From contig NZ_CBRF02000010.1 of NCBI RefSeq assembly GCF_000470315.2, positions 1-64,000 of the forward strand: DNA of 64,000 nucleotides, given 5' to 3'. Numbering within the stretch: the stretch's first letter is position 1; the number at the start of each line of letters is the position of its first letter. Positions 47,357 to 61,097 of this stretch are shown one piece after another. The stretch comes from Psychromonas sp. SP041 (lineage in GTDB: Bacteria > Pseudomonadota > Gammaproteobacteria > Enterobacterales > Psychromonadaceae). Below the pieces are notes generated by a model, which saw only the letters and a program-made list of their open reading frames with translations, was not told the DNA's origin and ran no database searches. The position numbers and the translations under genes were made by a program.

Positions 47357-47498
47357 TTTACAAGCTTAATATTTATAACTATTTATGATAAGAAATAATA
47401 TAAAAATATCGACAAACCTAAACAATGCAAAAGTAATAACATTAGTGCCAATGCTCAACGTTCGAGCTATAAAATATAGTTTTTCTTATTTATAATTA

Positions 47499-47543
47499 TT
47501 GATTATTGTTTATTGTTTATTGATTATTGTTTATTGATTGTTG
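47499..47543. repeat. Heptanucleotide tandem repeat after flrC
   Basis: Six consecutive 7-bp units (TTGATTA, TTGTTTA, TTGTTTA, TTGATTA, TTGTTTA, TTGATTG) plus a partial TTG lie 19 bp beyond the flrC stop, between flrC and the fbpA promoter region. No coding role is visible. Confidence 0.85.
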
Positions 47544-47561
47544 TTTTAAAAATCAAAAGAC

Positions 47562-57734: not shown

Positions 57735-57762
57735 ATTAAGTATTTGTTGGTGCATATATTCT

Positions 57763-57789
57763 TTATCGACCGCTTAAAAAATAACTTTA
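57763..57789 (-). promoter_or_regulatory. Sigma-28 (FliA) promoter of flagellin
   Basis: On the minus strand TAAAGTTA-N11-GTCGATAA matches the FliA consensus TAAAGTTT-N11-GCCGATAA with two mismatches and exact spacing. Confidence 0.92.
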
Positions 57790-57792
57790 ATG

Positions 57793-57844
57793 TTTTTCAA
57801 CTATTTTTTTAAACTATGCTTTTAAACTATGTTTTTAAACTATT
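57793..57844. repeat. Short AT-rich tandem repeat upstream of the flagellin promoter
   Basis: Three close copies of TTTTAAACTATG (plus a degenerate TTTTTCAACTAT) with 12-14-bp spacing lie immediately upstream of the sigma-28 -35 element. Confidence 0.7.
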
Positions 57845-58001
57845 GTTTATTTTGCTTACTTTCTGTTGTTGATATTAATGAAGTAAAGCAACGGTTCATT
57901 TTTAAAACAGTCGATGTTCAGACTTAATAACTGTATCGACTCGCTCAATAATTTCTTTAGGGCTTTTTGGAAATAAAGTGGTATTTTTTTAGAGGTAATA
58001 A

Positions 58002-58093: not shown

Positions 58094-58780
58094 TTAGAAG
58101 TAAACTCGCACAACAGATACGGCAACACAGCCAGGGCGACGTGTGCCTTGTATTTCAACTGAGATCTCTTTTTCAATCTCTAAACCACGTTTGATAGGTG
58201 AAACTTTAATTAAACGACTGTGCGCGCGTATCACACTACCCGTTTTAACAGGATACGGAAAACGTACTTGGTTAAGGCCATAATTAACGGTCATTTTAGC
58301 ATTCGCATAAGCGGGGCGGCTTGCATCAACGCTATCGGTTAAGTAAGGCAATAAAGATAACGTTAAAAATCCATGCGCAATAGTAGTTTTAAAAGGCGAT
58401 TCTTTTTCAGCGCGTTCAACATCATTATGTAACCATTGATGATCTCGGGTGACATTTGCAAACTGGTCAACACAATTCTGGCTGATCGTTAACCACTCAC
58501 CCACGTGCACTTCATCACCAATTCTTGATTGAAGGCATAAATAGAGTTCACGCGCTTCCGATGAAACTTGAATAGGTTTTTGAGCAACTTTAACTGAGCG
58601 ACCATTTTCTAAAACTGAATATTCTTTCACCCATGACAATAAATGAGCACGTTTATAGTGCGCATTTTTAAGAAAAAGAGAGTAATAGTCACGAACTGCA
58701 GGAGACATCCACTGCTTAAAATCAAAAGCAAACTTTTGCATAAAGTCCGCTTTGTATTTAGTAATATCAAGTTTTTTCAT
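58094..58780 (-). CDS. MaoC-like dehydratase/hydratase family protein
   Basis: 228 residues. The C-terminal hot-dog domain (about 85-228) carries the hydratase-2 motif in VTRDHQWLHND, with the catalytic pair Asp113 and His118, followed by TTIAHGFLTLSLLP. The family hydrates (R)-specific enoyl-CoA or related acyl substrates; the actual substrate is unknown. The first 80 residues are basic and helical and match nothing I recognise. ATG 58780 follows AAGGAAAG; it lies 31 bp downstream of pyrF on the same strand and may be cotranscribed with it. Confidence 0.85.
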   Translation of the reverse strand: MKKLDITKYKADFMQKFAFDFKQWMSPAVRDYYSLFLKNAHYKRAHLLSWVKEYSVLENGRSVKVAQKPIQVSSEARELYLCLQSRIGDEVHVGEWLTISQNCVDQFANVTRDHQWLHNDVERAEKESPFKTTIAHGFLTLSLLPYLTDSVDASRPAYANAKMTVNYGLNQVRFPYPVKTGSVIRAHSRLIKVSPIKRGLEIEKEISVEIQGTRRPGCVAVSVVRVYF

Positions 58781-58810: not shown

Positions 58811-59515
58811 TTAATTCAATGATGCATTAATATCGTTTAGTACTGCAACAGGATCTGTTGCTTGTGTTATAGGGCGACCAATCACTAAATAATCAGAACC
58901 ACTATCGATTGCTTGCTTTGGCGTTTTAATACGACGTTGATCACCTGCATCTGATCCCGCGGGGCGAATACCAGGTGTAATTAATTTAAATGAGGCACCT
59001 AATAACGCTTTAAGTTCTTCCGCTTCATGTGAAGAACAAACAACACCATCTAAGCCTGATGACTTAGTTAATGTAGCAAGACGCTTCACTTGCTCTGCAG
59101 GTGTCAGGTTGATGCCTAACTCTGTTAGATCACTTTGATCCATACTGGTTAAAACAGTGACCGCAATTAGTAAAGGAGCTTTATCGCCATAAGGTTCTAA
59201 AATTGCTTTAGCTGCTTCCATCATACGGCGCCCACCACTGGCATGTACGTTAACCATCCATACACCAAGATCAGCTGCCGCTTTAACGGCTTTAGCCACT
59301 GTATTTGGAATATCATGAAATTTTAAATCTAAAAATACGTCAAATCCTTTTGCGACAACAAGCTGTACAAATTCAGGTCCAAAATGTGTAAACATTTCTT
59401 TACCGATTTTTAGGCGACATGTACTTGGATCTAATTGCTCTATAAAAGCCAATGCTTGTTGTTTGTCATCATAATCTAATGCGATAACAACTTTAGGATC
59501 AGTTAGCTGATTCAT
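58811..59515 (-). CDS. pyrF: Orotidine 5'-phosphate decarboxylase
   Basis: Last step of UMP synthesis. 234 residues of a TIM barrel, with the catalytic block [20 protein letters not shown] and the phosphate loop LVIGRPIT near the C-terminus. ATG 59515 follows AGGAAAA, which lies between the start and the first repeat unit. lapB-pyrF adjacency is conserved, but here 409 bp of mostly tandem repeat separates them. Confidence 0.98.
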
Positions 59516-59534
59516 TTTTTTTCCTATCTAAACA

Positions 59535-59914
59535 GTTTGTAAGCAATATTAAGTTTTGTAATCAATACTATGTTGTGTCATCAATGTTACGTTTTGTCAT
59601 CAATGTTACGTTTTGTCATCAATGCTACGTTTTGTCATCAATGCTACGTTTTGTCATCAATGCTACGTTTTGTCATCAATGCTACGTTGTGTCATCAATG
59701 CTACGTTGTGTCATCAATGCTACGTTTTGTCATCAATGCTACGTTTTGTCATCAATGCTACGTTTTGTCATCAATGCTACGTTTTGTCATCAATGCTACG
59801 TTGTGTCATCAATGCTACGTTGTGTCATCAATGCTACGTTGTGTCATCAATGCTACGTTGTGTCATCGATGCTACGTTTTGTAATCAATGCTACGTTTTG
59901 TAATCAATGCGACG
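59535..59914. repeat. Minisatellite: 20 tandem copies of a 19-bp unit
   Basis: The unit TTTTGTCATCAATGCTACG is repeated without interruption for 380 bp, exactly 20 x 19. Eight inner copies are identical to the unit and six differ only by G at position 3 (copies starting 59687, 59706, 59801, 59820, 59839, and, with a T at position 15, 59573); the copy at 59858 has both the G and a CATCGATG variant. The outer copies are degenerate: those at 59535, 59554, 59877 and 59896 carry GTAATC or GTAAGC instead of GTCATC. The array fills nearly the whole lapB-pyrF spacer. There are no spacers between units, so it is not a CRISPR. Confidence 0.97.
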
Positions 59915-59924
59915 TTACAATATT

Positions 59925-61097
59925 TTATTCGCCGTCTAAGCCTCTGATCGGCTTAATTCTTCCCCAACTTTTACAGGATGGACATTGCCAAAATAGCTTT
60001 TTAGTCGAATAACCGCATTTTTGACAACGATATTGTGGCCTCAATGTAATTTGTTCACTTACTAGCTTATGCAAAAACACTAAACTTTCTTTTTCGTTAT
60101 CAGACTGTGCTAGTTGCAAATGATAGGTCATTAAATGATTAAAGCCTTTCATGGTCGGATTACGGCGTAATTCTTGTAGCATAAAATTTTGTGCTTTTTC
60201 GACACTATTAAACTCAGCAATTAATTTAGCCAATAGTATGACCGCGCTGGCCCCTGCCCCTAAATTAACAATACGTTGTAAATAGGTAATTAATTCTTGT
60301 TCTGTCTTCAGTTGTTTATGTAGCGCATATAAGTTTTCTAAAATGACTTCTGTGAAGTCAATATCTAACTCAGGTACTTGTTCTAGGATACTAAGCGCTT
60401 TTTCTGGTTGCTGGTTTTGTTCATAATATTCAGCCATCGCTAAACAGGCGCGGATACACTTAGGAAAAGTCACTAATGCTTTTTGATATAGCTTAATGGC
60501 TTGTTTTTGTTGTTCTGGTTTTTTCATTTCGCAAGCTAAACTGCAGTACAAATAAGATAGCGTTCTAGGTTTCGCTTTTGATTTATCGATCTTATTCATT
60601 AATTCGGTGCAATTAATTGCTTCTTGCCAATCTTTTAATTGTTGGTAAATAAGCAATAAATTTTCTAGTGCTGCTTGTTTATATTCAGGTGACTCTTTAA
60701 GTTGAATGAAGATTTCTTCACTACGATCAAACAAGCCTGAATGATAGAAGTCTTTTCCTAATTGAAACATCGCTAAATCACGCTGCTCTAATGTCAAAGA
60801 CGGACGAGCAATAAGATTTTGATGGATACGTATAGCACGATCTACTTCGCCGTTTTGACGAAATAAGTTACCTAATGCGAGATGCGTTTCAATAGTTTCA
60901 TCATCCACATCGAGTAAAGCAATAAAATGGTCGACGGCTTTGTCAGGTTGTTCGTTTAATAAAAAGTTTAAACCTTGAACGTAATCTCGACTTAATTGGT
61001 TGCCTTTTTTTTGCTTTTTTTGATAAACGCTACGCACACCCATATACCAACCATAAAAGGCAGCAACAGGTAACAATAAGAAAAAAATCTCTTGCAC
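59925..61097 (-). CDS. lapB: Lipopolysaccharide assembly protein B (LapB/YciM)
   Basis: Membrane-anchored TPR protein that controls LpxC turnover, and so LPS level. 390 residues (E. coli 389): an N-terminal membrane anchor (IFFLLLPVAAFYGWYMG), TPR repeats (about 35-345), and a C-terminal rubredoxin-like zinc site with CQKC (358-361) and CPSC (372-375). The start is GTG 61097, set by alignment to the conserved N-terminus. Six bp after lapA. Confidence 0.96.
   Translation of the reverse strand: MQEIFFLLLPVAAFYGWYMGVRSVYQKKQKKGNQLSRDYVQGLNFLLNEQPDKAVDHFIALLDVDDETIETHLALGNLFRQNGEVDRAIRIHQNLIARPSLTLEQRDLAMFQLGKDFYHSGLFDRSEEIFIQLKESPEYKQAALENLLLIYQQLKDWQEAINCTELMNKIDKSKAKPRTLSYLYCSLACEMKKPEQQKQAIKLYQKALVTFPKCIRACLAMAEYYEQNQQPEKALSILEQVPELDIDFTEVILENLYALHKQLKTEQELITYLQRIVNLGAGASAVILLAKLIAEFNSVEKAQNFMLQELRRNPTMKGFNHLMTYHLQLAQSDNEKESLVFLHKLVSEQITLRPQYRCQKCGYSTKKLFWQCPSCKSWGRIKPIRGLDGE

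Follow-up and report, generated by a model that had tools for sequence, protein, structure and literature searches.

Intergenic minisatellites are already known in bacteria, according to passages of three reports (PMC6749651, PMC2884548, PMC3899988), and in two of these their birth is ascribed to anomalies of replication (PMC6749651, PMC3899988). In M. tuberculosis, the longer the repeat located in the rnc-fpg1 spacer, the higher the level of fpg1 mRNA, as stated in the excerpts of the report on that locus (PMC2734929). Of the genes that concern us here, lapA and lapB are co-transcribed in E. coli, and the passages of the source do not place pyrF in that operon (PMC7730581). The papers listed on Psychromonas tandem repeats and on the lapB/pyrF operon, covered mostly at the level of titles and abstracts, contained no report of the array described below.

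The window, the whole stretch of 64,000 nucleotides of Psychromonas sp. SP041 that was analysed, holds a tandem array in the spacer between two minus-strand genes: lapB, encoding a lipopolysaccharide assembly protein (59925-61097; NF008756, E 2.7e-164), and pyrF, encoding orotidine-5'-phosphate decarboxylase (58811-59515; NF001273, E 1.3e-99). Along the minus strand the neighbours are rpsA, ihfB, an ORF of 111 amino acids, lapB, pyrF and then a gene with a partial match to the PaaZ model. The 111-aa ORF between ihfB and lapB gave no NCBIfam match and is, by its position, presumably lapA; we take the gene with the partial PaaZ match to be MaoC-like. The order rpsA-ihfB-lapA-lapB-pyrF is the usual one. 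Among the 24 Psychromonas genomes searched, lapB was present in 23 (that of the window, G000, and 22 of the 23 others, the single miss being G012, which is 51% complete), and in all 23 of these pyrF is the next gene after lapB.

The spacer from the lapB stop to the pyrF start (59516-59924) measures 409 bp and, read from lapB to pyrF, consists of 8 bp after the lapB stop (59917-59924), 20 units of 19 bp (59537-59916, minus strand) and a flank of 21 bp before pyrF (59516-59536), in which a Shine-Dalgarno-like AGGA was assigned by inspection. In this transcript register the unit consensus on the transcript strand is AACGTAGCATTGATGACAA, with A or C at position 19. The 20 units of 19 bp claimed in the earlier note are obtained when the + strand is cut from 59535, and Tandem Repeats Finder (TRF) agrees (59553-59916, period 19, 19.2 copies, 95% matches, zero indels); the exact count comes from a draft assembly in 121 contigs. 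The best self-identity over 200 bp reaches 0.985 at lag 19, 0.97 at twice that lag (38) and 0.965 at three times (57), and is at most 0.46 anywhere in the window for all remaining lags from 10 to 59. None of 300 dinucleotide shuffles of the spacer matched the periodicity. The tandem array in the lapB-pyrF spacer is real. It is made, as minisatellites are, of head-to-tail copies of a unit longer than 10 bases (period 19), and its location is non-coding, between the stop of one gene and the start of the next, with + frames that are not kept in the sister species.

The spacer of the window is the longest of 23 in the genus, the second having 242 bp, where the start of pyrF was placed by extending the protein match and lengths are approximate in the most distant rows. 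The same lengths, from 10 to 242 bp, were found in 16 Psychromonas records (L032-L047) whose genomes overlap those counted. In the sister species G019, with a LapB 98.7% identical, the spacer has 124 bp, partitioned as 8 + 5 x 19 + 21, and its five units are degenerate, with a mean pairwise identity of 0.716. In G020 (LapB 92.3% identical) it has 46 bp, composed of 8 bp, one 17-bp unit and 21 bp. The 21-bp flank on the pyrF side is identical in the three of them. The next genomes by LapB identity, G018, G014 and G002, have spacers of 48, 48 and 51 bp in which no unit could be made out by eye, and inspection of the 23 genus spacers revealed the unit in just three, those of the window, G019 and G020. 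Spacer length differs ninefold among these three close relatives, and the earlier proposal that lapB-pyrF spacing changes holds between species (46, 124 and 409 bp). In a tree of the LapB and PyrF proteins the window pairs with G019 (support 100/98), and both fall with G020, G018 and G014 in a clade of five rows (97/97) made of three branches whose order is open. A periodicity test applied to the 25 of 30 spacers of at least 40 bp gave low shuffle counts, besides the window and G019, for G006 (0 of 300 shuffles as periodic), G005 (2), G011 (3) and G021 (5), which with 25 spacers tested is suggestive at most. The spacer of G011 (L008; Psychromonas sp. SA13A, of another clade) displays a weak 21-bp periodicity, as strong in 3 of 300 shuffles, which is not seen in G003, a close relative of G011 (118 of 300).

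The units of the window differ in a regular manner. Unit position 15 is G in all 16 inner units (59575-59878; mean pairwise identity 0.954) and T in four of the 20, namely the two at the lapB-side edge (59879-59916) and the two at the pyrF-side edge (59537-59574); T is also the base in the five units of G019 and in the unit of G020. The GTAA-type variant that had been noticed in the outermost units was found precisely in the first two and the last two. The final pyrF-side unit ends in GCTTAC, as do the last unit of G019 and that of G020. What is directly observed is the series of one, five and 20 units in orthologous spacers, the base that the edge units share, and the derived state of the inner ones. 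At four-fold sites the window and G019 differ by 36% in lapB and by 24% in pyrF, while inner units are 95.4% identical among themselves; hence most copies arose later than the split between the two, or were homogenised after it. As edge units keep the base of the outgroup and inner units carry the derived one, the array has grown from the inside, after that split or with later homogenisation. The growth from the inside put forward in the earlier note is thus supported, now polarised by the position-15 states of the relatives. Edge units 1, 2, 19 and 20 have identities of 0.63-0.84 with single G019 units and the best match is not always at the corresponding end; without one-to-one pairing by identity, edge-by-edge orthology rests on few bases. 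Positions 7 and 15 are combined in all four ways among the units, which fits exchange within units (gains or exchanges in differing registers) or repeated mutation. The T/G blocks at position 3 of the + strand were recovered as described (G1, T5, G2, T4, G4 and T2 across units 3-20), in 7 runs over the 20 units, whose clustering is not significant alone (permutation p 0.094). The block duplication that had been read from them is compatible with the run pattern but undemonstrated at that value.

From this evidence, the array is very likely a local intercistronic minisatellite of the lapB-pyrF spacer, in which a single stretch of about 19 bp was duplicated and later expanded from the interior to 20 copies. 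A single ancestral stretch of about 19 bp would have been copied a few times before the window species and G019 separated, and in the window species these few would have become 20 by growth from the interior through replication slippage or unequal exchange. Either process is presumably the engine of the expansion; the two are indistinguishable from present sequences. One unit is the simplest ancestral state suggested by the sequences. Since G020 and the window-G019 pair form an open fork in the tree, a contraction in G020 is possible; we infer that its state is the ancestral one. The array would be transcribed as an untranslated spacer of a lapB-pyrF mRNA and, because the ribosome-binding region of pyrF is untouched, its effect on the cell would be small. 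The array is probably near-neutral.

In the samples of the genus, short tandem arrays are a common feature. Arrays with a period of at least 8 and at least 3 copies amounted to 19 in 462 kb of the window's genome (window included), 24 in 400 kb of G019 and 29 in 400 kb of G006, with 12 in 400 kb of G024, from a different family of the same order; block-shuffled controls, three per genome set, gave 0 arrays each. The lapB-pyrF array tops the sample of its own genome with 19.2 copies, the runners-up at these periods having 7.0, 6.3 and 6.2, and is therefore atypical of that background. G024 holds an 18-bp array with 25.1 copies. Other long arrays of the window's genome have units of 81 bp (5.5 copies; L068:546-1002, C8) and 45 bp (6.2 copies; L062:19581-19869, C2), both periods being multiples of three. 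Within the window, a 7/14-bp tandem array at 47495-47546 is absent from the orthologous place of G019. The stretch at 57747-57926, upstream of a flagellin gene, is identical to G019 in 179 of 180 bases despite the divergence of 24-36% at four-fold sites of lapB and pyrF, and contains a 13-bp array (57790-57848) of 4.5 copies, also 4.5 in G019. It is partly matched in seven of the 20 lapB loci (L032, L035, L036, L038, L039, L040 and L047), not all of which extend that far, and it resembles a leader or promoter of flagellin that is under constraint. Hence, some local arrays come and go and others are kept.

The unit itself is confined to its place. In its own genome it is found in tandem only at the lapB-pyrF array; with up to 3 mismatches it is matched 16 times elsewhere, just as often as the reversed pattern (16), and the degenerate 19-mer has 12 outside the array against 21 in the control. 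A dispersed repeat family of the MIRU or REP kind was rejected, as matches outside the array do not exceed those of the reversed-pattern control. The degenerate 19-mer was searched over 24 genomes, for some of which the result consists of match counts without positions. Four matches in G006 (C1:2189191-2189624), with 3 mismatches each and 138-139 bp apart, belong to a different, longer repeat.

Other explanations of the array concern its count, its coding content and the proteins that might bind to it. Near-identical units of 19 bp are easily miscounted and the draft is in 121 contigs, so that the copy number could be an artefact of assembly. However, an artefact would not create degenerate edge units with the state of the outgroup, and G019, on a 2.49-Mb contig, carries an array of five units of its own at the corresponding position; such an artefact, which would concern the exact number 20 and not the existence of the array, is highly improbable. 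The units could also encode a repetitive protein on the + strand, where three ORFs with open frames of 96-145 aa cross the array and the inner units carry no stop in any frame. Nonetheless, the unit length of 19 bp is not divisible by three, each of the three frames is interrupted by stops in the G019 array, and the Pfam matches of two of the ORFs are far below the cut-off (best E 0.0049, 17.3 bits against 27). With the stops of G019 and these sub-cut-off matches, a hidden + strand protein was rejected, its likelihood being practically nil. The direct repeats and their constant spacing would suit a multi-site array for protein binding, either iteron-like or a cluster for a nucleoid protein or regulator. 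Iteron units cover a range of lengths that includes 19 bp, and ihfB lies 1.7 kb from the array, although in an ordinary gene order. Against it, the DnaA-box consensus TTWTNCACA had 0 matches in 3651 bp around the array, a weak test as 0.74 were expected; there was no match in plasmid or phage collections; none of the six neighbours scanned, five with family matches and one with none, is an initiator; and the unit is not kept at the locus in most species. The IHF consensus, with up to one mismatch, occurred 15 times in the locus, a count that 20 of 200 shuffles also reached (expectation 9.8), with only one site inside the array, in an edge unit; an array of IHF sites was rejected, as the array is not enriched in them. 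The iteron-like possibility raised in the earlier note is unsupported, given the lack of an initiator among the neighbours scanned, of a DnaA box around the array and of any match in plasmid or phage collections, with the unit recognised in 3 of 23 genus spacers; protein binding in general, rejected on the same grounds, is hardly credible.

It may also be considered that the length of the array would tune the mRNA level, stability or translation of pyrF (or lapB), the gain or loss of units acting as a slow volume control. The array lies between two same-strand genes that are adjacent in the 23 genus genomes bearing lapB, the spacer varies ninefold among three close relatives, and a precedent exists in M. 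tuberculosis, where mRNA rises with the length of the rnc-fpg1 spacer repeat in the passages of that report (PMC2734929); by this analogy, a length effect on pyrF would be possible. On the other side, the flank next to pyrF stays the same whether 20, 5 or 1 units precede it. A crude consensus scan of both strands placed neither a sigma-70-like promoter nor a terminator-like site within the array; over the whole stretch it gave 1 promoter-like site, as compared with 11.9 in shuffles. The fold of the spacer transcript is no better than chance (z -0.65, 26 of 100 shuffles as good) and no Rfam family overlaps the array, the lone sub-threshold match of the searched stretch being at 58725-58780; an array of structured RNAs or terminators was rejected on these results. 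Tuning by length is accordingly regarded as unlikely, and its stronger form, in which a length-variable spacer would set the ratio between expression of LPS control and of pyrimidine synthesis in this Psychromonas lineage and would have expanded under selection, as very unlikely.

The minisatellite of the lapB-pyrF spacer shares with plasmid iterons the length of the unit and its direct orientation, but differs from them in being beside core genes and not conserved, with no initiator among the neighbours scanned and no DnaA box. With bacterial minisatellites and satellites in general it shares a unit of more than 10 bases, head-to-tail arrangement, unique sequence and a period that is not a multiple of three, according to passages of the reports on them (PMC6749651, PMC3899988). 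The array points to no new mechanism; it clearly exemplifies a repeat of an ordinary kind, and nothing so far indicates that it serves a dedicated function. It is probably an intercistronic minisatellite close in kind to the intergenic VNTRs of M. tuberculosis and, with one genome per species compared, a candidate VNTR. In the excerpts describing these (PMC2734929), the intergenic VNTR and MIRU loci, such as VNTR3239 (ETR-F) between rnc and fpg1, are likewise tandem arrays between two neighbouring same-strand genes, with a nearly invariant downstream gene and a motif limited to one lineage. The M. tuberculosis units have 55 and 79 bp as against 19 bp here, and it is there that variation among isolates and a link to mRNA level were measured (PMC2734929). 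The array might find use as a typing marker, or be taken as a natural experiment on whether the distance between cistrons matters. Unlike minisatellites in general, it offers an unusually clean growth series, with 1, 5 and 20 units visible at the same place in the orthologous spacers of close relatives, where outgroup sequences separate old from new unit variants.
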